Shown: piece after piece, positions 4,561-22,786 of the stretch
How the letters are laid out: every line of letters starts with the position of its first letter
Position numbering within the stretch: position 1 is the stretch's first letter
Assembly (NCBI GenBank): GCA_018828585.1
Contig: JAHJVW010000135.1
Location: 1-35,413 of the forward strand
Direction of reading: 5' to 3'
DNA length: 35,413 nucleotides
Origin: Bacteroidota bacterium
GTDB lineage: Bacteria; Bacteroidota; Bacteroidia; Sphingobacteriales; Sphingobacteriaceae
Made by a program: the position numbers and the translations under genes
The notes under the pieces: model-generated
The model's database searches: none
What the model was told of the DNA's origin: nothing
Seen by the model: the letters and a program-made list of their open reading frames with translations, nothing else

Positions 4561-4565
4561 TCGTG

Positions 4566-5438: not shown

Positions 5439-5448
5439 AACTAAAAAA

Positions 5449-6324: not shown

Positions 6325-6369
6325 AAGAGGTTAATTAAACTGACTTCATTTATAACTATTTAAATCCGA

Positions 6370-7023
6370 ATGAGCAACACTTTCGAAGCTTACCTTTTTG
6401 ACCTCAACGGTACCATTATAGATGATATGCACTTTCATGCCAGAGCATGGCATGAAATCCTGACCGATGATTTAAAATCTGATATCTCGTATGAGGATAC
6501 GATTTTAGAGATGTATGGGAAGAATTCAGAACTTTTAGAAAGGGTTTTTGGGAAAGATCATTTTACGCAAGAGCAAATGGACGAATTTTCTATGGAAAAG
6601 GAAAGGAGATACCAAGCGGCATTCAAACCTCATTTGAAACTGATTGATGGTTTAGACGAGTTCTTAGAGAAGGCGCATCAGGCGGGAATAAAAATGGCCA
6701 TTGGCTCCGCAGCTATTCCTTTTAATATCGATTTTATCTTGGATAACTTAAATTTAAGAAAGTATTTCCCAGTGGTGGTGAGCGCAGAAGACGTAACTTT
6801 AAGCAAACCAGATCCCGAGACTTTTAGCAAAGGAGCTGATATTTTAGGTGTGGATTACGATAAATGCTTGGTTTTTGAAGATGCACCAAAAGGAGTAGAA
6901 GCCGCAAAAAATGCAGGCATGCAAGCCATTGCCCTAACCACTTTACATACGCCAGAGGAGTTTCATATCACTGATAATGTAATTAGATTTGTGAAAAATT
7001 ATCAAGGTTTAGATTTATTTTAA
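6370..7023 (+). CDS. HAD superfamily, beta-phosphoglucomutase-like protein with altered motif I
   Basis: A 217-residue HAD protein with a helical cap. Motif I is FDLNGT: nucleophile Asp11 is present, but the usual general acid/base Asp two residues on is Asn13. The other motifs are intact: Ser113 in IGSAA, Lys146 in SKPDPETF, and Glu170-Asp171 in VFEDAPKGVEAA. The cap contains HFHARAWHEIL. Canonical beta-phosphoglucomutases and most phosphatases need DxD, so this is either a phosphatase with altered kinetics or a member of a related group with a different reaction. It lies 45 bases after the TIM-barrel gene and closes the + strand operon, converging with the cfa gene after 8 bases. A role on a phosphorylated sugar is inferred from context. 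Confidence 0.85.
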   Translation: MSNTFEAYLFDLNGTIIDDMHFHARAWHEILTDDLKSDISYEDTILEMYGKNSELLERVFGKDHFTQEQMDEFSMEKERRYQAAFKPHLKLIDGLDEFLEKAHQAGIKMAIGSAAIPFNIDFILDNLNLRKYFPVVVSAEDVTLSKPDPETFSKGADILGVDYDKCLVFEDAPKGVEAAKNAGMQAIALTTLHTPEEFHITDNVIRFVKNYQGLDLF

Positions 7024-8380: not shown

Positions 8381-9205
8381 TTAAAACACAAGAGGAATTC
8401 CCTGTAATTTAGTTTCCGTTTCAGGTAAAATCTCGCAGTTATCCCAAATGCCAGTTCTTAAAGTTTGTTGATAGGTTTTAGGTAATGGTTTATCATCCAT
8501 TAATTCGGCAGCTTTTTCAAAATCGTAACGTAGGGCTTTGATTTCATAATTGAATCCATTGGAATCGTCAAGAATGGCGTACCAAACTTTGGGTGTCCCA
8601 TCATTTGCGGGCATTCCTATTACTCCGGCATTAAGCCAAAGTTTATCGTTTTTCGTTTGTGAAAACGGTAAACCACAATGGCCTGCTAAAATTATATCGG
8701 CGTTAAGCGCATCAAAATTGGCTTGTTTCTTTTCCCATTCCGTCGATTTAAAAATGAACTCCGAGGTATCGAAATAGGAACCATGTACAACCGCCATTTT
8801 TTTATCAGCGTAAGCGAAAGAAAGAAACTCTGGAATGGTTGCTAGCCAATCAATATCATCCTGGTTGACTTGACTTTTTAAATATGGATACCATTGACGA
8901 GAGAATGTATCGCAGCGACTACCATCTTCAAAATTACAACCGCAATGGTCAATATCATTAACCAAATTGAGTTCAACATTGCCTGCAATGCAATGAATTC
9001 CCCAGTCTTTAATTAAAGTTATACATTCCTTAGGTTGCGCACAATATGCAACGATATCACCAGTACAAATAATATTTTTTGAAGAAATTCCATCGGCGAA
9101 AGCCAATTCCTTTATAGCTTCTAAAGCCTGGAGATTAGAATAAACTCCACCAAAAACCATAATTTTTCCGTTAAGTGTTCCTAAATCTTTTATGATTTTC
9201 TCCAT
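8381..9205 (-). CDS. Metallophosphoesterase-fold protein with degenerate metal site
   Basis: A 274-residue homologue of YfcE/MJ0936-type calcineurin-like phosphoesterases. The first motif, normally SDxHGN, reads GGVYSN (residues 19-24), so both the Asp and the His are lost. CTGD (Asp50), GN (Asn76), VHGS (His141) and the first His of GHCG (His176) remain. The catalytic His of GNHE is Val77, and the second His of GHxH is Gly178. This removes the ligands specific to one metal while keeping the full set for the other. A Cys-rich segment CGCNFEDGSRCD (88-99) is also unusual. It overlaps the symporter gene by 16 bases, so it is co-translated with that transporter. It may be a mononuclear enzyme or a ligand-binding protein. 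Confidence 0.82.
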   Translation of the reverse strand: MEKIIKDLGTLNGKIMVFGGVYSNLQALEAIKELAFADGISSKNIICTGDIVAYCAQPKECITLIKDWGIHCIAGNVELNLVNDIDHCGCNFEDGSRCDTFSRQWYPYLKSQVNQDDIDWLATIPEFLSFAYADKKMAVVHGSYFDTSEFIFKSTEWEKKQANFDALNADIILAGHCGLPFSQTKNDKLWLNAGVIGMPANDGTPKVWYAILDDSNGFNYEIKALRYDFEKAAELMDDKPLPKTYQQTLRTGIWDNCEILPETETKLQGIPLVF

Positions 9206-10551
9206 GATTTATTTAACAAAGGAATAAAGAATAATATGAAACACACTAAACTGCCCCATAAATTGACACCCAGTAAATCGTTGTATTTACCTTCGGTGAA
9301 TATCCATGATTTTGGAACCCATTCAAAAACAATCATCAAACCCATTAATAATCCAAAAATTACTGGTCCGTAAAAAGAGAATTTGGGCATGGATTTATTC
9401 CAGAATAGGAATACCGGAGCCAAACCAATTACCATCGTTCCACTAATGGTAGTTGCAGATAAAATTTCGGGTTTAAAGAAAATGGGGATGGTTCCTAAAA
9501 TAGTCAGTACTACCATCGCTATTCTCCCTTTACTGATTTTTAATTCCCGGTTTGGAAAAATATCAATGTTATACAATTTAGAGAAAGAGGAAAAAGCTGA
9601 ATCCAATGTTGAAGCAGCAGAGGTGACCATAATGAAGTTCATGATGAGTAGCATCACTGGTCCGAAGAACTTCGCTACTTCTACAGTCGCTTGTCCAGTC
9701 ATTCCTTTGGTTTGGGCGAAAATTCCTACAATTCCGAATAACGCAATACAAATTACTCCAATAATACTAGCCCAAATAAATGATTTTAAAGTTGTTTTTG
9801 GAGAGGTGATGAAACCTCTATCAGTTAAGACCGGATCGTGAAAAGGATAACTGAAACATTGTAAAAATGCGACGAGGACTAAATTTCCTCCAGTCGACAT
9901 ACTCCATGTTCCGGATTGATAAATGGGTTTATAATTACCCTGCATCTCAGGTAAAATGTAGGCTAAAATAGAAGTTAGCAATACCCCAAAAAGTATCATT
10001 TGTATCACATCTGTAAGGATAGAAGTACTCATCCCGCCTTTTAAAGCATAAGCTAAAGTGAGCAATGTAAAAACAATGATAGAAGCATAGTATGGTGTTG
10101 AACCTGCATCTCCAAAATAAGAGCCAATGACTAAGGTGTTCGACCAAACCTCGTTAAATAATCTAAAAGCGATTAATATGGAAAAAAGGTATAGCGCCCC
10201 TTTTCCATATTTTGATCCAATAAAATGATGAATACTTTTAAAGCTGCCATTCAATCTCATTTTATAAATCACAAAACCAGCCACCAAAAAAGATAGGTAA
10301 TAAGTAGCATAAGAAACCACACCTACAATTCCGAAACTCAAACCTAGGTTAGCCACATTGGTGATGGATTTAGCAAAAATCCAACTGATGACTAAACTAC
10401 TGGTAAGTAGTATCGCATTGGGTTGTTTATCATTTTTACTTCCGTAAAAAAAATCTCTAGTGGTTTTGGCAATGGGTGCCAAAGCAAAAATTAAAATGCT
10501 TGACAGTAAAATAAAACCCCATTGCAGGTAGGTGACTGTATTGTTCTCCAT
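9190..10551 (-). CDS. Sodium:solute symporter (SSS family)
   Basis: Inner-membrane transporter of 453 residues with about 12-13 hydrophobic segments, in the SSS/LeuT-fold sodium symporter family. Family features are SIHHFIGSKYGKGA near the first third, ALKGGMSTSILTDVIQMILFG (the conserved G-G-x-x-x-V-x-x-T/D-x-x-Q region), and VTSAASTLDSAFSS, the sodium-site helix rich in Ser/Ala. It begins one base after the SusD stop and overlaps the phosphoesterase homologue by 16 bases. With SusC/SusD it would complete a two-membrane import path. The substrate cannot be read from the sequence; the adjacency to arsenosugar genes makes an organoarsenical, or a sugar or nucleoside precursor, a testable idea. 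Confidence 0.9.
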   Translation of the reverse strand: MENNTVTYLQWGFILLSSILIFALAPIAKTTRDFFYGSKNDKQPNAILLTSSLVISWIFAKSITNVANLGLSFGIVGVVSYATYYLSFLVAGFVIYKMRLNGSFKSIHHFIGSKYGKGALYLFSILIAFRLFNEVWSNTLVIGSYFGDAGSTPYYASIIVFTLLTLAYALKGGMSTSILTDVIQMILFGVLLTSILAYILPEMQGNYKPIYQSGTWSMSTGGNLVLVAFLQCFSYPFHDPVLTDRGFITSPKTTLKSFIWASIIGVICIALFGIVGIFAQTKGMTGQATVEVAKFFGPVMLLIMNFIMVTSAASTLDSAFSSFSKLYNIDIFPNRELKISKGRIAMVVLTILGTIPIFFKPEILSATTISGTMVIGLAPVFLFWNKSMPKFSFYGPVIFGLLMGLMIVFEWVPKSWIFTEGKYNDLLGVNLWGSLVCFILFFIPLLNKSWRKS

Positions 10552-10552
10552 T

Positions 10553-11989
10553 TTAGTTATTCCACCAAACTTTTGTATTGATGCTATTATTGTTCGTTGC
10601 CGTTGCTGCTACTTTATAATTATCTACATTTAAAGTAGATTCTTCTTGTGGATAGGGCATTCTTACTGGATATAAACCATTATTTCTACTGGCCTGCACT
10701 GGTTTTAAATCTGGAAATCCAGTTCTTCGATATTCTATCCAAGCTTCATAACCATTCAAATTATTTGGAATCCACTTTTGGGTGATGATGAGTTTTAAAG
10801 CATCGGGAGAAAGCGGATTAAACAATGCTGGGCCGGCTGTTAAATAATTATCTGGCATGGCAACATTCCAATAATTAAAGCCCTGCATAACAGCTAAATC
10901 ATATAAAGATTTTGCCGATGCTGTGATATAACCCTTCTGAGCGGCTTCAGCCAAAAAGAAATTGGTTTCCCAAGCTGTCATATAATTAAACTTCAAATTT
11001 GCTCCGTTTTCTCTGAAAATGGTACCAGTTAGGCTATAATTAGATACATTGACAGGAGTAGTTGCTGCATTAGGTCCGTTAATTAAGCCCGTATAATTCA
11101 CTGCATTTGCAGCCGTTGGGCGATAGAATAAAGAAAGCCTTGGGTCATTATAACCTTTCAAAATTTCTTCTGCTGTTTTAGAGAGGATGTATAAACTAAA
11201 ATCGCCTACTCGAGCCGTAGTGATTCTGAAATTGTTAGGCGCTGTTGCTGAAAATTGAAAAACAGCATTATTTGTATTTGCTCCAATATAATTTCCAGCT
11301 GAATAAATTGCTTGAAGCTGCGCTTTCACATCTACTTTTCCAGAAATCCGCATTAAATATTTGATTCGAAGAGAGTTGGCGAATTTAATCCAGTTTTGTA
11401 GGTTGCCGCTGTAGATAATATCACCATCTAATTTTGTGGCGCCATTATAGACAGTCATTGCGGTAATAGCATTTTCCAGATTTTTTAGAATTCCGTTTGC
11501 ACCTTGATAGATGTCTTCTTGTTTATCATACTTTGGTGTATAGATATCTGATTTTCCTTTCAGCGCTTCACCATAAGGAACATCGCCATATAAATCAGTT
11601 AAAGCAGCAGTCATGTAAGCTTTCATCACCAAAGCCGGCCCTTTATACACTGCAAAGGTGGGATTGCTATTCGCTTTCTGCAATACAATCTCGTTATCAC
11701 GAAGGTTCTTATAAATAAATGGCCAAGGATTTCCTGCATATAGAGGTTCTGCCAAAGCATGACGATCAAAATTGTTAAAGTCAATCATCGTGAAATACTG
11801 ACCTAATAAGTTTCCGGCATCAAAAGCTTCGAACGACATTTGCTCTCCGTAGTCAAACAGAACCTTTCTAAATAAAAGGGAAGGCTGTGCGTCTATCGGG
11901 GAGTTTGGATTGGTGTTGATTTCACTCAAATCTTTGGTACACGATGCCAATCCTAGAGTTGTAATTAAAATGATTATATATTTTTTCAT
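10553..11989 (-). CDS. SusD/RagB-like outer-membrane lipoprotein
   Basis: A 478-residue surface lipoprotein that acts as a lid and ligand-capture subunit for its SusC channel. ATG 11989 is chosen over ATG 12013 because it puts a classical lipoprotein signal at the N-terminus (MKKYIIILITTLGLASC, Cys17) and sits 10 bases after the SusC stop. The mature N-terminus DLSEINTNPNSPIDAQP matches the SusD-like_2 branch. The body contains tetratricopeptide-like helices (NLENAITAM, WIKFANSLRIKYLMRI, NFFLAEAAQKGY) and the C-terminal EAWIEYRRTGFPDL motif typical of the family. It partners with the SusC gene immediately upstream. Ligand unknown. Confidence 0.93.
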   Translation of the reverse strand: MKKYIIILITTLGLASCTKDLSEINTNPNSPIDAQPSLLFRKVLFDYGEQMSFEAFDAGNLLGQYFTMIDFNNFDRHALAEPLYAGNPWPFIYKNLRDNEIVLQKANSNPTFAVYKGPALVMKAYMTAALTDLYGDVPYGEALKGKSDIYTPKYDKQEDIYQGANGILKNLENAITAMTVYNGATKLDGDIIYSGNLQNWIKFANSLRIKYLMRISGKVDVKAQLQAIYSAGNYIGANTNNAVFQFSATAPNNFRITTARVGDFSLYILSKTAEEILKGYNDPRLSLFYRPTAANAVNYTGLINGPNAATTPVNVSNYSLTGTIFRENGANLKFNYMTAWETNFFLAEAAQKGYITASAKSLYDLAVMQGFNYWNVAMPDNYLTAGPALFNPLSPDALKLIITQKWIPNNLNGYEAWIEYRRTGFPDLKPVQASRNNGLYPVRMPYPQEESTLNVDNYKVAATATNNNSINTKVWWNN

Positions 11990-11999
11990 CACTAGTTTA

Positions 12000-14900
12000 T
12001 TAAAAATTAACACCTAAACTCAAGCCAAAACTTCTGGCACTTGGGTACGACATATCTTCTGTTCCGTTCAAGAATTTATTTCCTTGTACTGCTAACTGCT
12101 CCGGATCAAAATGCGGGATTTTTGAAATCGCAAAAACGTTTTTTCCGATAAAGGATAGTTTTAGACTTTGTACATTTTTTAGAAATGTTTTGGCAAGCAA
12201 AGCTTTACTAAAAGTATATCCCAAATTAAACTGGCGAAGCTTTAAATACGAATCGCTGTAAACGCTATTCTCTTCGTGGTTACGATCGTAAAACTGACGG
12301 TAGTAGCTCTCAGCCGAAATTTTCTTGGTGTTTTGAACATAAACTGGATTTGTTGCTGTGCCTGTATTCATCACCGCATCAAAAGCTAAACCTTCAGTTG
12401 GGCGGTATTCTGTTTCTTTTAACTGTCCGGCTACTCCGGCTAATGCTAAAGTTCTAGAAACTAAAATTCCGCCTTGTCGCCAATCTAAAAGAAAGCCAAA
12501 ATCGAATTGTTTATATCTAAAGGTGTTGCTGAAACCCAGCATAAAATCAGGATTATAGTTCCCTAATTTTTTCAGTTTATTATCGGCTATTAAATTCCCA
12601 TTGTTATCTACAATAAATTTTCCATCGGCATTTTTCACGTAGCCATCTCCCCAAATATCTCCTATTTTCCCGCCTTCGGTAGCGATGTAATAAACGGTTT
12701 GGTTAGGGCTGTCATAAACTCGGGCGTAAGCCAAAGTCAATTGTTTTGCTCCGTTTGGTAAAGATTCAACGGTGGATGTATTGGTGCTAAAATTAGCTGA
12801 AACATTCCATCTAAAATTCTTACTTAAAACGGGTGTTCCGGTTAAAATCAATTCTACACCTTTAGAACGTACTGAACCTCCATTGGTCACTCTTTGCGCA
12901 TATCCTGTTGATTGTGATACGGGTAAAGAAAGAATCTGATTTTCGGTAAGTGAATTGTAATAGGTTGCGTCAATACCTAATCTATCACCAAAGAAGCGGA
13001 TATCGGCACCAAACTCGGCCGATTTAGTTTGCTCTGGTTTAAGATTTGGGTCTGATATGATATTTTGGTCAGATAGTGTAGGGCTGCTATTATAAGGCGT
13101 AGCCGGAACAAATGCGCCAGCAGTTTGATAAGGGTCGGTATCATTTCCAATTTGCGCATAACTTGCTCTAAGCTTCAAAAATGACACTTGTGGAACTTTA
13201 ACCAATTCTGAAAGCACCAAGCTTCCAGAAACTGACGGATAAAAGAAGGAGGTGTTTTTAGTACTACTTGGTGTTGCCAATGCGCTAGACCAGTCGTTTC
13301 TTCCAGTTACATCTACAAACAAGTAGTTTTTGAAACTCAACTTTGCGATTCCGTAGGCGCTATTGATTCTTTTCTTGCTTGCAAAAGTAAAAATTTCTAA
13401 TGGGGTTGCGGCATTAGATAAAGTGAATAGGGCAGGTTGCGCTAATGCGGATGTTTGTGTTTGGTTACTTTTGAATTGCTGATTCATTTGATTTGCTCCT
13501 AATGAGATATCAAAACCAAAGTCATTGATTTTTTTGGTGTAGTTTACTAATACGTCTGTGTTAATTTCTCTAAACAACACATTGTGCTCTGCATACGCAC
13601 CGTTTTTAAAACGATTGGTGCTATAATTTCTTAGTAACCTTCTACCTTCATTGCTATAATCCATGCCGCCTCTTAACTGCACATACAAATTAGGAAGCAA
13701 ATCATATTTCAGGGCAATATTCCCAAAAATACGATCACGGTTTAGCTCATTTCTATTTTCTTTTAAAATGAAATAAGGGTTATCAAAATAGGTATAATTA
13801 TAAGAGTAATTTCTTAATCCCTCTAAACCTGGCTGCCAATAGTTTTTTAGAGGAGCAATGTCTAACGACCTTGGTAACCAAGCTAATAAGCCGTATTGTA
13901 AATTTTCAGAACCGTATCCGCTAGAGGGGCGGTTATTACTTTTTGCATTTTGATAAATAATGGTTGACTTAAAATTGAGCTTGGTTACAGGTTGAAAATT
14001 AAGATTAGCTGAAACATTCTTCCTCAAATAATCGACACCTGGAATATACGATTGACTGTTTAAATCGGTATATGATAAACGGTAATTTCCTTTGTCATAC
14101 TTGCCACTAAAAGCTAAATTGTTGATAAACGTTTTTCCTGTTTGATAGAAATCTTTCAGGTTATTAGGATGTGAAATGAATGGAGTAGGAGTAATTGGAA
14201 TACCACTATAAAGCCCAACATCGCCACCTCTCACCACTCGCCCATCAGGCAAAGTAACAGGACTGTTGTATTGCGCAACTAAAGTTCCTTGGTCGAGTTT
14301 CGGCCCGTATGAATAAGTTAATACATCATTCACGCCGCCACCTAAACCATCTTTAAATGCAAAATTACCGCCATTACCTTGGCCGTAAGTATTCTGAAAT
14401 TGGGGTAGTTTAAACGGACTTTCAATAGAACTGGTAGAGTTGAAGCTCACCCCAAAACCTTCGGAATTGCTACCGTCTTTGGTGTTAATTAGAATAACAC
14501 CGTTAGCCGCCCTGCTGCCATAAAGTGCGGCAGCTGCAGCTCCTTTTAAAACAGAAACCGAGGCAATATCATCGGGATTGATGTCCATTGCGCCATTTCC
14601 AAAATCTATCGCTTGGAAACTTGAAGGTGCTTCCACAGATCTGGGTACGATTTGATTATTGTTAATTGGAATGCCATCGACCACAAAAAGTGGGTTATTA
14701 TTAGCAAATGAGCTTTCTCCCCTGATTACAATTTTTGAAGATGAGCCTACACCGCTGGCACCTTGTGTAATGGTCACCCCGGCAACTTTGGTAGTAATGT
14801 TATCAAGAAAATTAACTGATTTTACTTCTGATATCTCTTTAGCCTGAATCTGCTGGACATTATAGCCCAAAGATTTGGAATCACGCTCTAAACCTAAAGC

Positions 14901-15215
14901 CGTTACTACGGTTTCATTTAATATTAATCCAGGGCTTAAGCTTACAGAAAGGTCTAATTGCCCATTTAAGGCCAACTCTTTAGTGGTAAAGCCAATATAG
15001 CTAAAAACTAAAATTGCGTTCTTGGAGTTTACCGTTAAGCTAAATTTCCCATCCACGTTGGATGCAGTTCCGTTGGCAGTGTTTTTTTCTTTCACACTTA
15101 CGCCAATCAGTTTTTCACCAGTTACCTGGTCAGTTATACTTCCTATTACCCTAGTTTGTGCAAAAGCAAAGTTCAAGAGCAAAAAGGAAAATGCAATCGT
15201 AAAGATTGATTTCAT
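12000..15215 (-). CDS. SusC/RagA-like TonB-dependent outer-membrane transporter
   Basis: A 1071-residue outer-membrane channel. Its parts in order are: a signal peptide ending in NFAFAQ; a carboxypeptidase-regulatory-like domain (about residues 22-105, with GKFSLTV and YIGFTTKEL); the TonB plug (NETVVTALGLERDSKSLGYNV, then NNPLFVVDGIPINN, the hallmark SusC motif); and a 22-strand barrel ending in SLGVNF. It forms a SusCD pair with the next gene. The gap to the DUF2064 gene upstream is only 40 bases, with no terminator and no TAnnTTTG element visible, so read-through from the arsenosugar operon is likely. No anti-sigma or hybrid two-component regulator, the usual SusCD regulators, is nearby. 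Substrate is unknown. Confidence 0.95.
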   Translation of the reverse strand: MKSIFTIAFSFLLLNFAFAQTRVIGSITDQVTGEKLIGVSVKEKNTANGTASNVDGKFSLTVNSKNAILVFSYIGFTTKELALNGQLDLSVSLSPGLILNETVVTALGLERDSKSLGYNVQQIQAKEISEVKSVNFLDNITTKVAGVTITQGASGVGSSSKIVIRGESSFANNNPLFVVDGIPINNNQIVPRSVEAPSSFQAIDFGNGAMDINPDDIASVSVLKGAAAAALYGSRAANGVILINTKDGSNSEGFGVSFNSTSSIESPFKLPQFQNTYGQGNGGNFAFKDGLGGGVNDVLTYSYGPKLDQGTLVAQYNSPVTLPDGRVVRGGDVGLYSGIPITPTPFISHPNNLKDFYQTGKTFINNLAFSGKYDKGNYRLSYTDLNSQSYIPGVDYLRKNVSANLNFQPVTKLNFKSTIIYQNAKSNNRPSSGYGSENLQYGLLAWLPRSLDIAPLKNYWQPGLEGLRNYSYNYTYFDNPYFILKENRNELNRDRIFGNIALKYDLLPNLYVQLRGGMDYSNEGRRLLRNYSTNRFKNGAYAEHNVLFREINTDVLVNYTKKINDFGFDISLGANQMNQQFKSNQTQTSALAQPALFTLSNAATPLEIFTFASKKRINSAYGIAKLSFKNYLFVDVTGRNDWSSALATPSSTKNTSFFYPSVSGSLVLSELVKVPQVSFLKLRASYAQIGNDTDPYQTAGAFVPATPYNSSPTLSDQNIISDPNLKPEQTKSAEFGADIRFFGDRLGIDATYYNSLTENQILSLPVSQSTGYAQRVTNGGSVRSKGVELILTGTPVLSKNFRWNVSANFSTNTSTVESLPNGAKQLTLAYARVYDSPNQTVYYIATEGGKIGDIWGDGYVKNADGKFIVDNNGNLIADNKLKKLGNYNPDFMLGFSNTFRYKQFDFGFLLDWRQGGILVSRTLALAGVAGQLKETEYRPTEGLAFDAVMNTGTATNPVYVQNTKKISAESYYRQFYDRNHEENSVYSDSYLKLRQFNLGYTFSKALLAKTFLKNVQSLKLSFIGKNVFAISKIPHFDPEQLAVQGNKFLNGTEDMSYPSARSFGLSLGVNF

Positions 15216-15255
15216 CCGATTTATGTATTAAATAAGAATTTGATTTATTAATGTT

Positions 15256-15942
15256 TTAGGAAGACTGGATAACTAAAGGGGGACCTCGATCAGTATTTTG
15301 AATGATGAGTCCACTATCCTCAGTCAGAAAATCAGTAGTAAATTTGATTTCTTCCGAGAGAATGTTAGATAATATTTTTTGTATTGCGGAGTGATGTGGT
15401 TGATTTAAATAAATATTTATGGCAATCTCATTATCTAAATCAATAAAAGTTTGAAGTAATTGATAATTGGCACCAAAATGCTCAAAATTACTGATAAGCT
15501 GTTTATGAAATAAATGGCTCTGCCAATCAAGATTTTCTAATATTCCCTTATGAAAATTGTCTTTACTTACACTGATTAAATAAGAACCTCCATCAGAAGA
15601 TGGACCTATCGTTAGAATTTTAGCTTCTAAATTTCTTTGAGCCTGCAATAAATTAATGGCTGAAAGATGAGGTGTATCATCCCCTACGATAATCAGGTTT
15701 TCATACCCTAACTGAAAAATTCCTCCAGCAGCTCCTTTTATTCTTTCTCCAAAAGACTGTCCATAGGTTTTGCCATCACTGATGACATAGGCCAACCCCG
15801 ATTGTTGGATCTCACTTAAGGTCTTTTCAAATAAGACTTTCTGTATTGCATTTTGCTTCCTCTTGTGCGAAGAGAAAAGCTTTTCACTCTCTAGTTGAGT
15901 TGTGAAATATAAAATGCAGGTATTTTTAAATTGTGAATTCAA
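15256..15942 (-). CDS. DUF2064 / arsenosugar biosynthesis-type glycosyltransferase (copy 2)
   Basis: A 228-residue GT-A-fold protein of the DUF2064 (TIGR04282-like) family, recurrent in arsenosugar gene clusters. Visible motifs are FGERIKGAAGGIFQLGYENL, IVGDDTPHLS and GPSSDGGSYLI. The last contains the DGG[AS]YLI signature. Compared with copy 1 at 18525-19199 the nucleotide-binding-type motif GNDCPEL has become GDDTPHL, losing the Cys. The C-terminus carries a 40-50 residue extension ending RGPPLVIQSS that resembles the tail of copy 1. It is 16 bases after ArsM and 40 bases before SusC. Family function is proposed to be sugar transfer during arsenosugar formation; this is a family association, not shown by the sequence. 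Confidence 0.88.
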   Translation of the reverse strand: MNSQFKNTCILYFTTQLESEKLFSSHKRKQNAIQKVLFEKTLSEIQQSGLAYVISDGKTYGQSFGERIKGAAGGIFQLGYENLIIVGDDTPHLSAINLLQAQRNLEAKILTIGPSSDGGSYLISVSKDNFHKGILENLDWQSHLFHKQLISNFEHFGANYQLLQTFIDLDNEIAINIYLNQPHHSAIQKILSNILSEEIKFTTDFLTEDSGLIIQNTDRGPPLVIQSS

Positions 15943-15958
15943 ATTCTCGCATCAAAAA

Positions 15959-17017
15959 TTAACAACAGGAAACTGTAGGTTCGCCATCAGCAGTTTTAGA
16001 AAAAGGTATTTTTCCACCACAGCCTTCGTAAATACCATAATGAGTATTCCAATTACCATAAAAATCAAAAGCTTCGCGATAACGGGTATCATTTAGCATT
16101 TTGTACGTATTCCCGCAAACGGTTATCATTTTGCCTTTTGGAAAGTTATGATGGTCATCTAAATCGAAGGAATGTGTTGCGCCATCAATAGTTCCTTTAT
16201 AAGAGACGGCTTGTCCATAATCTTCACATTCACTTTCCAATCCATCTATTTTGAATAATCGGTAGGTTACAGAATATACTTTGATATCGCCCATTAATGC
16301 TTCAATCTCTTTATGATCTACCCCAATAGGTTTATCTTCTACTACTCTTGGGTCGGTAAAACCAGCATTCCTAGCGTAGTTCAAGAAATCGTTCCAATAC
16401 AATGCACCGCTAAGGCATTCGCCCCATAATATTGGATTATTTTGTAAGGTTTTAGGAAAACGTCTATCTGCATAAACATCAGAAAAATACATTTCTCCCC
16501 CTTTTTTCAAAAGTTTAAAGGCATCGTTCAATACTTTTTGCTTATCAACAACCAGGTTTAAAACACAGTTAGAAATTATTAAATCGAAACTTTCTAGTTC
16601 AAAACCCAGCTCATCCAAACTTTCTATATTGCCTTTCACAAAAGACACATTTGATCTTGCATAGCCAAATTTCTCTCTGTGATATTCTAAATGCTTATTG
16701 GCAACTGCTAACTGTTCGCTAGTCATATCCACTCCAACCACAAATCCTTCTTCTCCCACTAATTGTGCGGCGATGTAGCAATCTCTTCCGCTTCCAGATC
16801 CCAAATCCAGAATTCTTAAGCCTTTTAGTTGATCGGGTATGGTCAGTCCACAACCATAATATTTATCTTGAACCTCGTCATGTATATTTCTTAAAGCTTC
16901 CAAAATATGTTTTGGAGGAGCAGTTAGCGTACAACAAGCAGTCGTTTTTAAATCAGAACTTTGTTGAAGCTCTTTACCGTAATAATTTTGGACTTCTTCG
17001 TGAATGGTGTTGGACAT
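15959..17017 (-). CDS. arsM: Arsenite (As(III)) S-adenosylmethionine methyltransferase
   Basis: A 352-residue cytosolic methyltransferase that would convert thiol-bound arsenite to methylated arsenicals using SAM. The SAM site is ILDLGSGSGRDCY (69-81). The cysteines of known ArsM enzymes are all in place: Cys28-Cys29, Cys56 in YYGCGL, Cys151 in SNCVLNLV and Cys201 in GECLSGAL. FSDVYADRR is also typical. ATG 17017 is preferred over the longer 17077 start, which would overlap arsS by 50 bases and add an unconserved leader; the chosen start leaves a 10-base gap. A C-terminal extension of about 90 residues ends in a Cys-Cys pair. Its product would be the substrate of the adjacent ArsS. Name based on strong motif match. 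Confidence 0.93.
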   Translation of the reverse strand: MSNTIHEEVQNYYGKELQQSSDLKTTACCTLTAPPKHILEALRNIHDEVQDKYYGCGLTIPDQLKGLRILDLGSGSGRDCYIAAQLVGEEGFVVGVDMTSEQLAVANKHLEYHREKFGYARSNVSFVKGNIESLDELGFELESFDLIISNCVLNLVVDKQKVLNDAFKLLKKGGEMYFSDVYADRRFPKTLQNNPILWGECLSGALYWNDFLNYARNAGFTDPRVVEDKPIGVDHKEIEALMGDIKVYSVTYRLFKIDGLESECEDYGQAVSYKGTIDGATHSFDLDDHHNFPKGKMITVCGNTYKMLNDTRYREAFDFYGNWNTHYGIYEGCGGKIPFSKTADGEPTVSCC

Positions 17018-17027
17018 ATCTTTAATT

Positions 17028-18095
17028 TTAAGCAATCTCTCCGCCACAGCTACTTCCTGCTCCTGCAGTACATCCATAACAGTGGTTGTTTACAATAATT
17101 TTTCTGTTTAATATTTCCTCAAAATCAAAATCATCAATATGTTTTGCTTTACCTGTAAATTTTAAATCAAGCATTTGGTTAAAATCGCAATCGTACATAA
17201 AACCATCCCAACTTATGCTAATAGTGTTTTTACACATCAATCCATCTAAAGTTGACGGATTAAACGCACCAACCAACTCATGCATATAGTCCAAATATTT
17301 TCCGGTTTCTAATAAATAATCTAAAAAACGGCTTACCGGTAAGTTAGTAATGGCAAAAAGACTGTTAAACACAATGTCAAACTTTCTTTTCAATTGCCTT
17401 TTGAATTCGGCTTCCAGAGACTTTTGGTCGCCTGGTAAATACGCACCTGATGGGTTGTAGACCAAATCAATAATTAAACCGCTATCTTCTTGTCCAAAAC
17501 CTACCGCATTCAGCATTTTTAAAGCTGCAATTGAGTCTTCAAAAACACCGTCACCTCTTTGAGCGTCTGTTCTCATGGCAGAAAAGGAGGGCAATGAAGA
17601 AATCACATGAACGTGGTTTGCTTTAAAGAAATCTGGTAAATCATGGTATTTTTTATTAGCCATGATGATGGTCAGGTTACATCTCACCATTACTTCTACG
17701 CCTGCTTTGGTGCATTCTTCTACAAACCATCTGAAGTAAGCATTCATTTCTGGTGCTCCTCCAGTAATATCGACTTTTTTAAAATTATAGGTTTTAATTA
17801 AATACAGGCATCTTTCCAAAGTTTCGAAAGACATGTTTTCTTCTTTCCTATCGGGGCCTGCATCCACATGGCAATGTGAACACGTCTGATTACAAAGTTT
17901 GCCTATGTTGATTTGAAAAATCTCTAGTTCAGAAACTTTAATTGCATCTACGTTTAAAGATTTTAACTTTTTATGAAAATTCTCGTAAGCACCATCATGA
18001 ATGTCTTTTTGTGATAAAACTTTTAGCTGGTAAAAGTGATCACCCAATGCATTTCCAGAAGCCTTTAAAGATTTTGAAATTTGTTTAACACCCAT
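17028..18095 (-). CDS. arsS: Arsenosugar biosynthesis radical SAM protein ArsS
   Basis: A 355-residue radical SAM/Cys-rich protein. The [4Fe-4S] motif is CNQTCSHC (Cys68, Cys72, Cys75) followed by HVDAGP, and KVDITGGAPEMN supplies the GGxP-type SAM contact. The C-terminal third has MCKNTISISWDGFMYDCDFNQ and ends in CYGCTAGAGSSCGG (Cys339, 342, 350), the Cys-rich DUF3641-type tail. ArsS family members use a 5'-deoxyadenosyl radical on dimethylarsenite to make 5'-deoxy-5'-dimethylarsinoyl-adenosine, the first arsenosugar intermediate. It starts 2 bases after the AhpD-like gene and stops 10 bases before arsM, so the methylation and adenosylation steps are coupled. Confidence 0.93.
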   Translation of the reverse strand: MGVKQISKSLKASGNALGDHFYQLKVLSQKDIHDGAYENFHKKLKSLNVDAIKVSELEIFQINIGKLCNQTCSHCHVDAGPDRKEENMSFETLERCLYLIKTYNFKKVDITGGAPEMNAYFRWFVEECTKAGVEVMVRCNLTIIMANKKYHDLPDFFKANHVHVISSLPSFSAMRTDAQRGDGVFEDSIAALKMLNAVGFGQEDSGLIIDLVYNPSGAYLPGDQKSLEAEFKRQLKRKFDIVFNSLFAITNLPVSRFLDYLLETGKYLDYMHELVGAFNPSTLDGLMCKNTISISWDGFMYDCDFNQMLDLKFTGKAKHIDDFDFEEILNRKIIVNNHCYGCTAGAGSSCGGEIA

Positions 18096-18097
18096 AA

Positions 18098-18430
18098 TTA
18101 CATTGTATTATCTTTAACATGATTCATCATTTGTACTCCGAAAACTAAGGTTGCGCCACCTTTAATCGCTGCCGCCACATGTACAGCTTCCATCATTTGC
18201 TCTTCATCAGCTCCTTTTTTAAGGCAGTCTGAAGAATAAGCATCGATACAATAAGGACATTGAACAGCATGTGCAACTGCTAACGCGATTAACGATTTTT
18301 CTCTAACGGTTAAAGCACCTTCTTTAAAAACTTCGGTATAATACTCGAAGAATTTATCTCCCATTGGTTTTTGAAACTCGGTGATGTTTCCGAATTTTTT
18401 AAGATCTTCTGAATTAAAATAATTTGCCAT
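18098..18430 (-). CDS. Arsenosugar-associated peroxidase-like (AhpD/carboxymuconolactone decarboxylase fold) protein
   Basis: A 110-residue all-helical CMD/AhpD-like protein. The redox pair is CPYC (Cys58, Cys61) in HAVQCPYCIDAY, with a further Cys at 69, and KGGATLVFG follows. Family length is normal. This small protein is a recurrent companion of arsM and arsS in arsenosugar clusters. Its likely role is thiol-disulfide chemistry, for example keeping arsenic in the trivalent, thiol-bound state or removing peroxide, but this is inferred. It is 2 bases upstream of arsS. Nothing is seen in the 94-base gap to the first DUF2064 gene. Confidence 0.9.
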   Translation of the reverse strand: MANYFNSEDLKKFGNITEFQKPMGDKFFEYYTEVFKEGALTVREKSLIALAVAHAVQCPYCIDAYSSDCLKKGADEEQMMEAVHVAAAIKGGATLVFGVQMMNHVKDNTM

Positions 18431-18524
18431 GATAATTGTGTAATGTTTTTAATGATGCCAAAGCATTATTAAAAATTATGTACTAAAAAGATTTTGTTGG
18501 TTTTTTAAAACGAAAGCTATTTGC

Positions 18525-19199
18525 TCAGGCAAATAACGGTGGGCCTTTTAAGAAGGCTCTGCTCACAAAAAAGAAATCAAGGATAAAAGGAGTTATAGTT
18601 ACCTTTAAATCTAATTTGAAATCTTGAATGATGTGGTGTAGAAATCTAATCAATGTGTTTTTTGGATTTACAGCTGAAATTGCATTTGCCGAATCTAAAT
18701 CTGTAAATAGCTCTAATTCTGTAATTGGAGAGTGATAAAGGCTTTTTAAATCTTTAAAGGTCTTTCTTTTTTGCCATTTGATATTTAAAAATGAAGCGCT
18801 ATGGAAAGAGTTTTTAGGAATGCCAATTAAATAAGCTCCACCATCCCGGGTTGGACCTAGAACCACGTTACCTTTTTCTGTTTCGAAAATGGCATTTTGA
18901 AGCTGATTCAAATTTAATTCAGGACAATCATTTCCTATGCAGATCACATTTTCATATCCTTTGGCGTATACCTCAGTAAAAGCGTTTGTAATTCTTTCCC
19001 CAAATGTTTTACCTTTTTGATGATAACTATCTATTAAGAAAGTGTCGGCAGAGGTTTGCGTTGCTAATGTGTAAAAATGTTGCGTTAAAGCAATAGATAT
19101 TTTTTGGGTAGCTTTTTTTGATGAGATAGCTGACATACTCTTAGCCCTAGCCTCAAACTCTGGAAGATGCGCAAAAAGTATAATCGCTGTTTTTGTCAT
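18525..19199 (-). CDS. DUF2064 / arsenosugar biosynthesis-type glycosyltransferase (copy 1)
   Basis: First gene of the - strand operon, 224 residues. The GT-A-like core shows KTFGERITNAFTEVYAKGYE, CIGNDCPELN and GPTRDGGAYLIG, all hallmarks of DUF2064/TIGR04282. It is therefore the more canonical of the two paralogues. A hydrophobic C-terminal extension (VTITPFILDFFFVSRAF) ends LKGPPLFA, and the GPPL is shared with copy 2 at 15256-15942. Its start is 130 bases from the divergent ArsR-family gene, so its promoter lies in that shared region. Proposed role: sugar transfer or nucleotidyl-like chemistry in arsenosugar synthesis, by family association only. Confidence 0.9.
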   Translation of the reverse strand: MTKTAIILFAHLPEFEARAKSMSAISSKKATQKISIALTQHFYTLATQTSADTFLIDSYHQKGKTFGERITNAFTEVYAKGYENVICIGNDCPELNLNQLQNAIFETEKGNVVLGPTRDGGAYLIGIPKNSFHSASFLNIKWQKRKTFKDLKSLYHSPITELELFTDLDSANAISAVNPKNTLIRFLHHIIQDFKLDLKVTITPFILDFFFVSRAFLKGPPLFA

Positions 19200-19329: not shown

Positions 19330-19641
19330 ATGACAGAAACACTCACTAGAAATTTAACACCTGATAAATTGGAAAAGGCTGCCTTTATACTCAAGACAGT
19401 TGCGCATCCTATTCGATTAGCCATCATTAACCTATTGGATGTTCATCATCAAATGAGCGTAAACGAAATTTGTGAACAGTTAACCAGTGAGCAATCCTTA
19501 ATTTCCCACCATTTAACCAATATGAAAATCAAAGGATTATTAAAGGCAGATAAGCAAGGCGTACAAGTTTTTTATTCTTTAAAAGAGAAAGATTTGGTTA
19601 AGCTTTTGGATTGTATGGAAAACTGTAACTGTAATATGTAA
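19330..19641 (+). CDS. ArsR/SmtB-family transcriptional repressor, BigR/SqrR-like cysteine layout
   Basis: A 103-residue winged-helix repressor. The recognition region is SEQSLISHHLTNMKIKGLL (about residues 53-71) and the wing is KQGVQVFYSL. The ELCVCDL arsenite site of classic ArsR is absent. Instead a single Cys48 lies in VNEIC, the position of the first reactive Cys in the persulfide sensors BigR/SqrR, and three more sit at the C-terminus (Cys95, Cys99, Cys101). This pattern suits either persulfide sensing through an inter-helix sulfur bridge, or arsenite binding as in type 2 ArsR proteins with C-terminal cysteines. The stop codon overlaps the next start (TAATG). It heads a sulfur operon and faces an arsenic operon, so both ligands are plausible. 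Confidence 0.9.
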   Translation: MTETLTRNLTPDKLEKAAFILKTVAHPIRLAIINLLDVHHQMSVNEICEQLTSEQSLISHHLTNMKIKGLLKADKQGVQVFYSLKEKDLVKLLDCMENCNCNM

Positions 19642-20438
19642 TGATAAATTTCCACACGTATTTAACTTATTTTTTAGCTCTTTTTATTGGGATTTCCTTA
19701 GGTTTAACTGGCGGGGGTGGATCCATTTTAACTGTTCCGGTTCTGGTATACGCAGCTAAAATAGAACCCGTTATTGCAACGGCTTATTCGCTTTTTATTG
19801 TGGGATTAACTTCCTTAGTGGGTGCAGGTAGCTATTACAAAAGGAGATTAGTCAACGTAAAGATGGCTGTCATTTTCGCAATTCCAGCTTTTATTACCGT
19901 TTGGTTGATGCGCAAATTTGTGATTCATGCCATGCCTGATACCTTGTTTCAAATAAGAAGTTTTACACTTACAAAAGATTTATTTTTAATGTTATTTTTT
20001 GCATTGATCATGCTGATTTCAGGAGTAAAAATGGTATTTGGAGTAAAGAAAGAGATTAAAGAAAAGCAAGAAATAAAATATGGTTTAGTTTTGTTAAATG
20101 GTGTAATAGTTGGCGTTTTATCTGGTTTGGTAGGTGCTGGCGGAGGTTTCTTAATTGTACCCGCATTGGTTTTCTTTATGAGTTTACCCATGCACAAAGC
20201 GGTCGGAACATCACTTTTAATTATTTCCATCAATTCGTTAATTGGTTTTACCGGAGATATCTTGAACCTGCCACAAATTAATTGGGAATTTTTATTGATT
20301 TTCTCTTCTATCGCATCGGCAGGGATTTTCTTAGGGATTTATTTAAACCAGTTTTTAAATAGTGAAAAGCTAAAAAAAGTATTTGGATATTTTGTTTTGG
20401 CAATGGCTGTCGTGATCATTTTTAAAGAATTAATTTAA
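19641..20438 (+). CDS. TauE/SafE (TSUP) family sulfite or sulfur-compound exporter
   Basis: Inner-membrane protein of 265 residues with about 8 hydrophobic segments. The two internal family repeats are visible as LGLTGGGGSILTVPVLVY (about 20-37) and LVGAGGGFLIVPALVFF (about 161-177). The start overlaps the repressor stop by one base and the stop overlaps the methyltransferase start by one base, so translation is coupled. In BigR and Cst-type sulfide detoxification operons a TauE protein exports sulfite or thiosulfate made from persulfides. That role fits the persulfide dioxygenase-like gene two positions downstream. Arsenical export is an alternative but there is no family precedent I can name. 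Confidence 0.9.
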   Translation: MINFHTYLTYFLALFIGISLGLTGGGGSILTVPVLVYAAKIEPVIATAYSLFIVGLTSLVGAGSYYKRRLVNVKMAVIFAIPAFITVWLMRKFVIHAMPDTLFQIRSFTLTKDLFLMLFFALIMLISGVKMVFGVKKEIKEKQEIKYGLVLLNGVIVGVLSGLVGAGGGFLIVPALVFFMSLPMHKAVGTSLLIISINSLIGFTGDILNLPQINWEFLLIFSSIASAGIFLGIYLNQFLNSEKLKKVFGYFVLAMAVVIIFKELI

Positions 20439-21028
20439 TGGAAATGCTTCATGCAGATTATTGGAATAGTAGATACATCAACCAAGAAACAAGGTGGGAT
20501 TTAGGAGCCATTTCTCCGCCTATCAAAAGCTATATCCATCAGTTAGAAAATAAAGAATTAAGAATTTTGATCCCAGGAGCTGGCAATGCCTATGAAGCCA
20601 TTTATTTATTAGAGAATGGTTTTAAAAATGTAACAGTTGTTGATTTTGCTGAGAAAGCATTGAGCAATTTAAAAGAGAAATTAGTAAAAATTGATACTTC
20701 AAATTATAATTTAATTCAAGATGATTTCTTTAATCATGAAGGAGAATATGATTTAATTTTAGAGCAAACATTTTTTTGTGCTATCAATCCAGAACTAAGA
20801 ATAGCATACGTAAAACACACGCATCGTTTATTAACCGAAAAAGGAAAAATTGTAGGTCTTTTATTTAACAAAGAATTTCCTTTCGAGGGACCACCTTTTG
20901 GTGGGAGCGAAGATGAATACAGAGAATTATTCGAGCCAAAATTCGAGATTAAAATAATGCATGAAGCTCATAACTCAATAGCGCCAAGAAAGGGTTCTGA
21001 GTTGTTTGTGATTTTAAGTAAAAAGTAG
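20438..21028 (+). CDS. TPMT-like SAM-dependent thiol methyltransferase
   Basis: A 196-residue class I methyltransferase of the thiopurine S-methyltransferase-like family. The N-terminus has the family pattern YWNSRYINQETRWDLGAISPP. The SAM loop is LIPGAGNAYEA (about 45-55), VVDFAEKAL contacts the adenosine, and LEQTFFCAINPELR is the family hallmark after strand 4. No signal peptide is seen. Members methylate sulfur, selenium or tellurium nucleophiles. In this operon a plausible job is capping sulfide or persulfide as methylthiol; acting on arsenic-thiol species from the neighbouring operon is a second possibility. It is coupled to the TauE gene by TAATG. Confidence 0.87.
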   Translation: MEMLHADYWNSRYINQETRWDLGAISPPIKSYIHQLENKELRILIPGAGNAYEAIYLLENGFKNVTVVDFAEKALSNLKEKLVKIDTSNYNLIQDDFFNHEGEYDLILEQTFFCAINPELRIAYVKHTHRLLTEKGKIVGLLFNKEFPFEGPPFGGSEDEYRELFEPKFEIKIMHEAHNSIAPRKGSELFVILSKK

Positions 21029-21080
21029 AAAGACGCAAGATTCTCATATCTAACATCTCAATACTCAAATCTAAAATAAT

Positions 21081-22493
21081 ATGAAAATAGAACAAATTTA
21101 CACTGGATGTTTGGCACAAGGTGCTTATTATATGGAAAGTGATGGCGAAGCAGCTATTGTAGATCCGCTTAGAGAAACGCAACCTTACATTGAAAAGGCA
21201 GAGCAGGCTGGCGTTAAAATTAAATATGTTTTCGAGACGCATTTTCATGCTGATTTTGTGAGCGGACATGTTGATTTGGCAAAAAAAACAGGAGCGAAAA
21301 TCATTTACGGGCCAACAGCAGTTACAGGTTTTTCTTCCCACACGGCTAAGGATAACGAGGAGTTTAAAATTGGTAAGATTACCATTAAAGTGTTGCATAC
21401 GCCAGGTCATACGCCAGAATCTACTACTTATTTATGTTCGGATGAAAATGGCAAGCCTTATTGTATTTTCACTGGTGACACGCTATTTATAGGTGATGTG
21501 GGTCGCCCGGATTTAGCTCAAAAATCTGCTAATACCACAGAAGAAGCAATGGCTGGGCATCTTTACGATTCGTTAAGAGAAAAAATTATGCCTTTGCCAA
21601 ATGATGTGATCGTTTATCCGGCTCACGGTGCTGGTTCGGCTTGCGGTAAAAACATGAGCAAAGAAACTTTTGACACTTTAGGTCATCAGAAGGAAACAAA
21701 TTACGCTTTAAGCGATATTTCTAAAGATGCTTTCATTAAAGAATTAACTACTGGAATTTTGCCTCCGCCACAGTATTTTCCTAAAAATGCGAAGATGAAT
21801 AAGGAAGGGATCGACGCTATAGATGAGATTTATGAAAGAGGATTAAATGCCCTAGATCCAGATGAATTTGAAACTGCTGCAAATGCTACAGACGCTTTAG
21901 TTCTAGATGTTCGCTCTCCTCAAGCTTTCGCGGAATCTTTTATTCCAAATTCAATTTTTATTGGTTTAGATGGTCAATTTGCACCTTGGGTTGGCGCTTT
22001 AATCACCGATTTAAAGCAACACCTTTTATTAGTTGTTGATGAGGGAAGAGAAGAAGAAGCCGTAAAAAGATTGGCTCGTGTAGGTTATGATTATACCATG
22101 GGTTATTTAAAAGGTGGAATCAAGGCTTGGAAAGCGGCAAGAAAAGAAGTGGATTCTGTTAAAACAGTATCTGCTGATGAGTTAAGGAATTTAGCAGAAA
22201 AAGAAAAGCTAGAAGTTTTAGACGTTAGAAAGCCAGGCGAATACGATGCGGAACATTTAGAGTTTACATTAAGCCGTCCGCTGGATTTTATTAACGATTG
22301 GACAAACGAATTTGACAAACAAAAGCCTTATTATTTGCATTGTGCTGGTGGTTACCGCTCTATGATTACCTCTTCGATTTTGAAAGCTCGTGGTTATGAC
22401 GATATAACAAATGTGGATGGTGGTTTTGCCGCTTTAAAGGATGCTGGTTTTGAGACTACAGATTTTGTTTGTCAGAGTAAGAAGATGAAATAA
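21081..22493 (+). CDS. Persulfide dioxygenase-rhodanese fusion (CstB-like MBL-fold protein)
   Basis: A 470-residue fusion protein. Residues 1-245 form an ETHE1-like metallo-beta-lactamase domain: THFHADFVSGH (His54, His56, Asp58), TPGHTPEST (His110), TGDTLFIGDVGRPDL (Asp133) and YPAHGAGSACG (His182). His54, His110 and Asp133 match the ETHE1 iron ligands. Residues about 265-355 are a first rhodanese domain with no catalytic Cys (loop VVDEGREEEA). Residues about 363-455 are a second rhodanese domain with Cys421 in HCAGGYRS. This is the layout of CstB, which oxidises persulfides to thiosulfate or sulfite. A Cys in the C-terminal FVCQS may also be reactive. The leader 21040-21080 contains no G. 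Confidence 0.92.
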   Translation: MKIEQIYTGCLAQGAYYMESDGEAAIVDPLRETQPYIEKAEQAGVKIKYVFETHFHADFVSGHVDLAKKTGAKIIYGPTAVTGFSSHTAKDNEEFKIGKITIKVLHTPGHTPESTTYLCSDENGKPYCIFTGDTLFIGDVGRPDLAQKSANTTEEAMAGHLYDSLREKIMPLPNDVIVYPAHGAGSACGKNMSKETFDTLGHQKETNYALSDISKDAFIKELTTGILPPPQYFPKNAKMNKEGIDAIDEIYERGLNALDPDEFETAANATDALVLDVRSPQAFAESFIPNSIFIGLDGQFAPWVGALITDLKQHLLLVVDEGREEEAVKRLARVGYDYTMGYLKGGIKAWKAARKEVDSVKTVSADELRNLAEKEKLEVLDVRKPGEYDAEHLEFTLSRPLDFINDWTNEFDKQKPYYLHCAGGYRSMITSSILKARGYDDITNVDGGFAALKDAGFETTDFVCQSKKMK

Positions 22494-22766
22494 GATTTGG
22501 TCGTTTTCCCGAGCTATCAGGACACGCTATCCGCTCATAATGCTCAAGGCATTAGCCACAAGCCGGTATCCGGTGCTATCGTTAACGCAATCAAATAACT
22601 TCGGTCAGTGCCCTCACAGACCGAAACAATAATTAAATAAAATGATCTGTGAGGGCACAGACCATGGAGATAAAAATTAGAAAACTCCGTCATGTCGGCG
22701 ATAGGAGACATCTCACTAGCAAGATTAAAACTTGCAAATGAGACCTCTCGTTCCTCGAGGTGATGA
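22494..22766. repeat. Mosaic of REP-like hairpins between the dioxygenase and YeeE genes
   Basis: The 293-base gap inside the sulfur operon holds no gene that I can support, but it is dense in inverted repeats. Four hairpins are visible: TAATGC-tcaag-GCATTA (22538-22554); CGGTCAGTG-ccct-CACAGACCG (22602-22623, one mismatch); TCTGTG-aggg-CACAGA (22646-22661); and TCTCACTAGCAAG-attaaaa-CTTGCAAATGAGA (22711-22743, two mismatches). The second and third are inverted copies of one core, so they also pair with each other through 13 exact bases (22608-22620 with 22646-22658). The fourth sits inside a larger imperfect palindrome, 22689-22766. This resembles interspersed palindromic elements, placed here between co-oriented genes. 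Confidence 0.6.
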
Positions 22767-22786
22767 TAAAATTATAATTAAAACAA

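Follow-up and report, generated by a model that had tools for sequence, protein, structure and literature searches.

The window analysed here is contig JAHJVW010000135.1 over its whole length of 35,413 nucleotides (assembly GCA_018828585.1, a Bacteroidota bacterium of the family Sphingobacteriaceae). Positions 8381 to 19199 hold nine genes on the minus strand, in which genes of the arsenosugar biosynthesis families, among them arsS, lead into a transport block made up of a degenerate DUF2064 gene (DUF2064b), susC, susD, a sodium:solute symporter (SSS) gene and a gene for a phosphoesterase with an altered metal site (PE; Table 1). This block occurs patchily across Bacteroidota and tracks arsS, and the association suggests a dedicated and apparently undescribed uptake route for an arsenic-containing or related compound.

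Table 1. Genes and one candidate signal of the nine-gene run, in window coordinates.
Feature	Positions	Strand	Profile scores and remarks
DUF2064a	18525..19199	-	degenerate TIGR04282 paralogue heading the AhpD-ArsS pair; TIGR04282 86 bits (cut-off 134); no KTR motif
AhpD-like (TIGR04169, arsenosugar biosynthesis-associated peroxidase-like)	18098..18430	-	176 bits (cut-off 120)
arsS (TIGR04167, arsenosugar biosynthesis radical SAM protein)	17028..18095	-	424 bits (cut-off 300)
arsM-like arsenite methyltransferase	15959..17017	-	NF008823 170 bits (cut-off 263); NF038099 97 bits (cut-off 400)
DUF2064b, leading the SusC block	15256..15942	-	degenerate TIGR04282 paralogue; 68 bits (cut-off 134); TTG start; no KTR motif
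SusC-type TonB-dependent outer-membrane transporter	12000..15215	-	TIGR04056 625 bits (cut-off 368); TIGR04057 signature
SusD-type surface lipoprotein	10553..11989	-	PF12771 282 bits (cut-off 27); lipobox Cys17
SSS (SLC5-like) sodium:solute symporter, distinct clade	9190..10551	-	PF00474 22.7 bits; TIGR00813 34 bits (cut-off 184)
PE, calcineurin-like phosphoesterase fold, altered metal site	8381..9205	-	PF12850 36.8 bits (cut-off 27)
Terminator-like stem-loop across the DUF2064a end, before the AhpD-like gene	18516..18537	-	consensus scan

The Nine-Gene Run

All nine open reading frames that a first-pass annotation had placed in one run are present on the minus strand, and the spacings given there (94, 2, 10, 16, 40, 10 and 1 bases followed by a 16-base overlap) were reproduced exactly; for the arsM-like gene a longer mechanical reading frame begins at 17077. 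The annotation had also seen neither a terminator nor a -7 element before susC, and the 40-base gap indeed contains no terminator-like stem and no match to TAnnTTTG, a Bacteroidota -7 element. One match to this motif, TAATTTTG at 15490, lies within DUF2064b and has no paired upstream element. Five terminator-like stems were found on the minus strand, and the only one that extends beyond coding sequence is that at 18537-18516. As nine stems were found overall against 7.6 expected by shuffling, the stem scan is weak evidence. No Rfam match at gathering score was found anywhere in the window. With these spacings and no clear promoter before susC, the nine genes may form a single transcription unit. 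The gene order itself goes beyond chance, because the same order recurs in many other genomes.

Families were assigned to the nine proteins with NCBIfam and Pfam profiles and their curated cut-offs. These are exceeded by ArsS and the AhpD-like protein (TIGR04167 and TIGR04169) as well as by SusC and SusD, which are encoded by adjacent genes and of which the latter has the lipoprotein cysteine Cys17. The symporter falls 0.1 bit below the gathering score of PF00474 (22.7 against 22.8 bits), and SSS structures match its fold. The window ArsM stays below the cut-off for arsenite methyltransferase models and is not an arsenosugar-type ArsM (NF038099). None of the nine genes encodes a glycoside hydrolase or lyase, so the run does not qualify as a polysaccharide utilization locus.

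Co-Occurrence of the Transport Cassette with arsS

For comparison between genomes the cassette was taken as (degenerate DUF2064)-SusC-SusD-SSS symporter-PE. In a phylum sample of 392 Bacteroidota genomes, for which a completeness of at least 90% was requested, arsS was found in 151 and the symporter in ten, spanning nine genera. All ten symporter genomes carry arsS, with a hypergeometric probability of 6e-5 when genomes are treated as independent and relatedness is ignored; in seven of them the two genes are on one contig within 10 kb, and in three they are on different contigs. Many of the arsS-positive genomes carry the same family code, f38, and have small sizes of 1.6 to 3.3 Mb; none of these is among the ten with the symporter.

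A scan of a species-genome collection gave 186 relatives of the symporter, and the analyses of loci use the best 80 of these, the other 106 lying outside them. By their record titles all 80 are from Bacteroidota, and their organism names presumably represent at least five orders. ArsS is encoded in the flank of 38 of the 80 loci; among the 49 loci whose sequence reaches 9.9 kb or more to each side the number is 31. A genome-wide search for arsS, which covered just the 42 genomes without ArsS in the flank, found the gene elsewhere in 34, bringing the total with arsS to 72 of 80. The first-pass annotation had proposed that the transport block and the arsenosugar genes belong together, and had named a block common in relatives without arsS as the observation that would speak against this; what was found instead is arsS in 10 of 10 and in 72 of 80 of the genomes with the symporter.

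The cassette is itself conserved. Where the contig allows assessment, PE directly follows the symporter in 71 of 74 loci, SusD directly precedes it in 71 of 74, SusC lies before it in 63 of 66, and a DUF2064 gene is directly before SusC in 50 of 62. The window-type arsM was found in the flank of only 6 of the 80 loci (blast with the window gene), so that arsM is not regularly included in the linkage. The gene maps were made with a simple picker of open reading frames and an overlap filter, which missed the PE gene of genome G037 and possibly an ArsM gene in G005.

Arrangement and History of the Linkage

In 23 of the 38 linked loci ArsS lies downstream of the block and on its strand; in 10 it lies upstream, again on that strand (two of these, L101 and L120, have ArsS-SSS-PE without SusCD), in four it is convergent and in one divergent. 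In 34 of the 38 the stretch from ArsS to the block holds only AhpD-like, ArsS or DUF2064 genes. For the symporter a quick maximum-likelihood tree was made, in which 58 rows have a state (39 linked including the window, 19 unlinked). On this tree the linked or unlinked state has changed at least seven times, and the arrangement five times among the linked rows. Since linkage was evidently made or broken repeatedly, a single event of hitch-hiking does not explain it.

Individual loci illustrate the variety. In Gillisia (L092) the order is AhpD-ArsS-DUF2064-SusC-SusD-SSS-PE, followed by a rhodanese (NF045521), a DUF2064 with the KTR motif, a purine nucleoside phosphorylase, DUF547 and TIGR04283. 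In Flavicella (L101) the ArsS-SSS-PE genes lie near an arsenosugar-type ArsM gene of 570 bits, and in Euzebyella (L126) a TetR-type gene comes after ArsS. In a metagenome-assembled genome (MAG) of Winogradskyella (L141, 3502-4559) ArsS appears as two reading frames of 185 and 154 amino acids, perhaps through a frameshift or an assembly error.

Among 60 related genomes arsS exceeds the cut-off in 16 and the symporter scores above 200 bits in six, five of the same genus (G000, G005, G007, G009, G011) and one of another family (G037). G007 and G011 have ArsS and DUF2064b-SusC-SusD-SSS-PE contiguous as in the window, although no ArsM was seen in G011; in G005 a window-like gene order spans contig ends. 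In G037 the DUF2064-SusC-SusD-SSS-PE block, with PE right after the symporter, is on a different contig from ArsS. G009, which is 77% complete, lacks an arsS above cut-off, and its symporter gene lies at the edge of a contig. A SusC homologue was found in none of 12 arsS loci without an adjoining block (L066-L075, L078, L080; 7 to 20 kb fetched), which argues that SusC beside ArsS is not background. Two further gene copies were seen in these relatives. L084 (G005:C151, 73-3257) has a second ArsS copy (99% identical), after which come a DUF2064b (68%) and, broken off where the contig ends, a more diverged SusC (61%). This may be a second cassette; the assembly has 7% contamination. L079 (G011, 16491-17183) has a third degenerate DUF2064, 52% identical to DUF2064a, directly after PE.

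The Phosphoesterase and Its Fusion to AhpD

The best matches of an AlphaFold2-type model of PE (pLDDT 93.3) among PDB structures are the metallophosphoesterase 3rqz and the SapH-type asymmetric Ap4A hydrolase 3qfm, and the first six matches have TM-scores of 0.67 to 0.76 by query length, which points to a shared fold; VPS29 chains are also among the matches. By general knowledge of the family, D-x-H, GNH and GHxH are the metal and catalytic signatures of an active binuclear metallophosphoesterase. In the alignment of PE with 3rqz these read Gly20-x-Tyr22, Gly75-Asn76-Val77 and His176-x-Gly178, and Asp50, Asn76, His141 and His176 are retained. As the GxY, GNV and HxG replacements are found in the window PE and in at least 95% of 71 orthologues, PE lacks the signature of an active enzyme. 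Unlike 3qfm and 3rqz, it has lost some of the metal ligands and the GNH histidine to substitution and has four fixed cysteines: Cys55, Cys88, Cys90 and Cys98 are invariant in the 71 orthologues. In a 20-row alignment that adds a relative from Roseomonas, Cys88, Cys90 and Cys98 are still invariant and Cys55 is not. The model is at its least certain in the loop from Cys88 to Cys98, where the block means of pLDDT are 78 and 62. Judged from these alignments PE is a repurposed protein, which has lost part of its metal site and kept four cysteines. Decay to a pseudo-enzyme was rejected as an explanation, because the substitutions are fixed in the 71 orthologues.

In 18 of the 71 orthologues PE is fused in frame to the AhpD-like protein. 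On the symporter tree 17 of these fall in the flavobacterial clade, and the remaining one (L154) is from the Lewinellaceae. The single fusion scanned (L106) scores 194.5 bits against TIGR04169, above the cut-off. Internal initiation may yield separate AhpD from such fusions. The first-pass annotation had placed PE, as a degenerate metallophosphoesterase, in the transport module; by these fusions it belongs to the arsenosugar set itself and not just to transport.

The DUF2064 Copies

A canonical TIGR04282 protein scores above the cut-off of 134 bits and has an N-terminal KTR motif, and neither DUF2064a nor DUF2064b qualifies. The KxR motif is absent from all 48 DUF2064 copies before SusC (that of L139 is truncated there; L085 and L086, whose genomes were already present as G007 and G011, are left out of the set) and from all 14 copies from the window, its genus and G037. 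It is present in six of seven other copies, the six that follow a rhodanese-type gene. In the tree of DUF2064 the row G014_x229, which had no blast match, was ignored. Canonical TIGR04282 (206.6 bits) and TIGR04283 (223.4 bits) genes are found on other contigs of the window genome, and among 11 genomes searched the former is present in all 11 and the latter exceeds the cut-off in eight (not in G001, G013 and G037). With a canonical TIGR04282 elsewhere in the genome and no KxR in the copies before SusC, DUF2064a and DUF2064b were rejected as the canonical glycosyltransferase of the pathway; two DUF2064 genes are present in the operon, as annotated at first, but they are degenerate paralogues below the TIGR04282 cut-off. 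Leaving nucleoside phosphorylase aside, the window genome thus has the known arsenosugar families, though in dispersed positions.

Neighbouring Genes and Regions in Other Organisms

At 19330-23847 the window has a divergent operon of an ArsR/SmtB regulator, TauE/SafE, a thiopurine-methyltransferase-like (TPMT-like) protein, an MBL-rhodanese fusion and two YeeE-type sulfur transporters. It looks like an operon for sulfide or persulfide handling rather than for arsenic control, and parts of it also adjoin the ArsS operon in L077, L078, L079 and L080. That its ArsR is the arsenic regulator of the nine genes is doubtful, given that its own operon consists of TauE, TPMT-like, MBL-rhodanese and YeeE genes. 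On the plus strand at 17-7023 lie genes for a GFO/IDH/MocA oxidoreductase, a 3-keto-disaccharide hydrolase, a nucleoside H+ symporter, an IolE-like and a beta-phosphoglucomutase-like protein, which probably serve sugar catabolism.

Outside the range of the block, plasmid p546-1 of Roseomonas haemaphysalidis (L166, 2853-9813) has a run TIGR04282-DUF547-two radical SAM-PhnD-PhnE-ATPase-PE. Its PE is 42% identical to that of the window and likewise ends a run with TIGR04282 and an importer, and a TIGR04283-like gene is nearby (165 bits against a cut-off of 182). The importer is of the PhnD/PhnE ABC type in place of SusCD-SSS, and the radical SAM genes are below the ArsS cut-off (the better at 61 bits). 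It is a single case, but one in which PE of this kind goes with another importer in surroundings that resemble an arsenosugar cluster. An Acinetobacter plasmid arsS region has an inorganic phosphate transporter at its end.

Relation to Known Systems

In the accessible parts of two reports on Synechocystis, ArsS and ArsM carry out the first steps of arsenosugar biosynthesis, ArsS being an arsenic-adenosylating radical SAM enzyme (PMC8552651; PMC12159101). The system described here is like that pathway of Synechocystis sp. PCC 6803 in an ArsS that passes TIGR04167, its TIGR04169 partner and canonical TIGR04282 and TIGR04283 in the same genome. It differs in that its ArsM is of another type and that it has SusCD, a symporter and PE, whereas no transport arm is mentioned in those parts of the reports (PMC8552651; PMC12159101). 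Polysaccharide utilization loci share with it the adjacent susC and susD genes with a lipoprotein SusD, whose lipobox Cys17 is invariant in 71 orthologues; in the window a symporter and an altered phosphoesterase take the place of glycoside hydrolases or lyases, and the block is linked to ArsS. The AlphaFold2 model of the symporter (pLDDT 89.7) matches structures of SiaT, SGLT, DUR3 and CHT1 in Foldseek and so presumably has the fold of SSS/SLC5 symporters. It is set apart by an identity of 14 to 17% in the first 20 matches and by its profile, which in the phylum sample is associated with arsS in 10 of 10 genomes. A weak sequence match to a choline transporter chain (E 1e-4) raised a choline-like substrate, which was not pressed. 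Among the titles and abstracts of the matches listed in literature searches on arsenosugars, ArsS/ArsM and transport, with subscription papers mostly outside the search, no description of a SusCD or symporter arm of arsenosugar metabolism was found, which agrees with the first impression that such a route had not been described.

A Putative Uptake Route for Organoarsenicals

The cassette is conserved, co-occurs with arsS at the level of genomes, has repeatedly gained or lost its linkage to it, and contains a PE that is repurposed throughout and in part fused to AhpD. It is very likely that the cassette is functionally tied to ArsS. What the tie consists of is less certain, and we lean towards the view that DUF2064b-SusC-SusD-SSS-PE takes up and processes an organoarsenical and is a partner of ArsS in arsenosugar metabolism. 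Going by what is known of the families, transport would be inward. SusD would capture the ligand and SusC would pass it through the outer membrane using TonB energy; the symporter would then carry the ligand or a fragment of it into the cytosol on the sodium gradient, where the cytoplasmic PE (and DUF2064b) may bind or process it beside the AhpD-like protein and ArsS. The likeliest ligand would be a salvaged or recaptured organoarsenical, such as an arsenosugar, its phosphodiester or lipid headgroup, or a methylated arsenical. Organoarsenical import is favoured because SusCD and SSS proteins import, because PE is fused to a protein of the pathway and has fixed cysteines, and because arsS mostly occurs without the block. 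A more specific proposal, made with some reserve, is that organoarsenicals of the arsenosugar class have a dedicated uptake system, which would comprise a TonB receptor pair, a sodium symporter and a PE rebuilt as a four-cysteine arsenical handler.

Several observations weigh against import of an organoarsenical by a cassette tied to ArsS. The block is absent from 141 of the 151 arsS genomes of the phylum sample and is therefore an optional add-on, dispensable for the core pathway; with ArsS in the flank of just 38 of the 80 loci, this qualifies the attachment of the block to arsS as first proposed. No arsS was found in eight of the 80 symporter genomes, seven of them MAGs (L087, L090, L094, L104, L108, L132, L160), among which L132 is a MAG of 10.2 Mb with the full block. 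The eighth is an isolate, Nonlabens xylanidelens (L136), which has the symporter without SusCD, PE or arsS. G037 has the block and arsS, yet gives no TIGR04283 match at 1e-15. As 21 of the 23 downstream cases belong to one flavobacterial clade, they are not independent. In a gene table that is incomplete, SusC, SusD or a sodium symporter are listed for none of five annotated arsS regions on plasmids (one is that of a Hymenobacter), and next to the nearest plasmid symporter (Marinobacter, 44%) no arsenosugar gene is listed within about 9 kb on each side. The nearest solved symporter folds carry sialic acid, sugars, urea or choline and name no substrate, and small organoarsenicals might cross porins without a SusCD pair.

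A variant of organoarsenical import, which we regard as possible without preferring it, sees no catalyst in PE: as a subunit that binds a metal or metalloid or acts as a scaffold, it would use its cysteines to sense a trivalent arsenical or to pass it on. VPS29 uses a phosphoesterase fold as a scaffold subunit. The VPS29 chains among the fold matches, the replaced DxH, GNH and GHxH signatures and the four invariant cysteines, with the Cys88-Cys98 loop being least certain in the model, fit such a role; on the other side, the cysteines may serve zinc or structure, and Cys55 is lost once the Roseomonas relative is aligned.

It is rather unlikely that the imported compound is free of arsenic and serves the pathway as a precursor or partner, such as a nucleoside, a sugar phosphate, or a glycerol- or sulfur-bearing aglycone, to be joined to the dimethylarsinoyl-ribose unit. 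The linkage to ArsS would be equally strong for such a ligand as for an arsenical, and nucleoside-type ligands would fit because the PE fold is close to asymmetric Ap4A hydrolase and a purine nucleoside phosphorylase is part of the L092 cluster. Heterotrophs, however, make such precursors themselves, and most arsS genomes evidently manage without the block.

Still less probable is that the ArsS gene set of Bacteroidota makes or handles a compound other than an arsenosugar, with another element or none, and that the cassette transports this compound. The frequency of arsS in the phylum sample is above what arsenic exposure would suggest, arsM is rare in the flanks, and sulfur chemistry is suggested both by the divergent operon and by the rhodanese that some flavobacterial clusters have beside PE. 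Against this, arsenosugar-type ArsM accompanies the cassette in L101 and TIGR04283 in L092, and ArsS of Synechocystis acts with ArsM in arsenosugar biosynthesis in the accessible parts of the reports (PMC8552651; PMC12159101).

That two unrelated units merely abut and were joined by hitch-hiking of a mobile segment, the alternative offered at first, draws on the 40-base gap before susC, the 42 of 80 flanks without ArsS and the separate contigs of G037, but is highly improbable in view of the 34 genomes with unlinked co-occurrence, the several arrangements, the repeated changes in linkage, the PE-AhpD fusion and simple arithmetic, by which chance placement within 10 kb of arsS is expected in fewer than one of 100 genomes of this size.

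Arsenosugars are a major form of arsenic in algae, and, as far as literature searches show, little has been described of their uptake and turnover by bacteria. With susC, susD, the symporter gene and PE, concrete genes are now at hand, which may serve as a gene marker for organoarsenical turnover in metagenomes. Counting the altered phosphoesterase and the degenerate DUF2064 among the arsenosugar genes enlarges a pathway whose first steps alone are described in the accessible parts of the literature. If organoarsenical uptake by this cassette is true, Bacteroidota would take up and recycle organoarsenicals of algae and of other microbes, which goes beyond the detoxification of inorganic arsenic.

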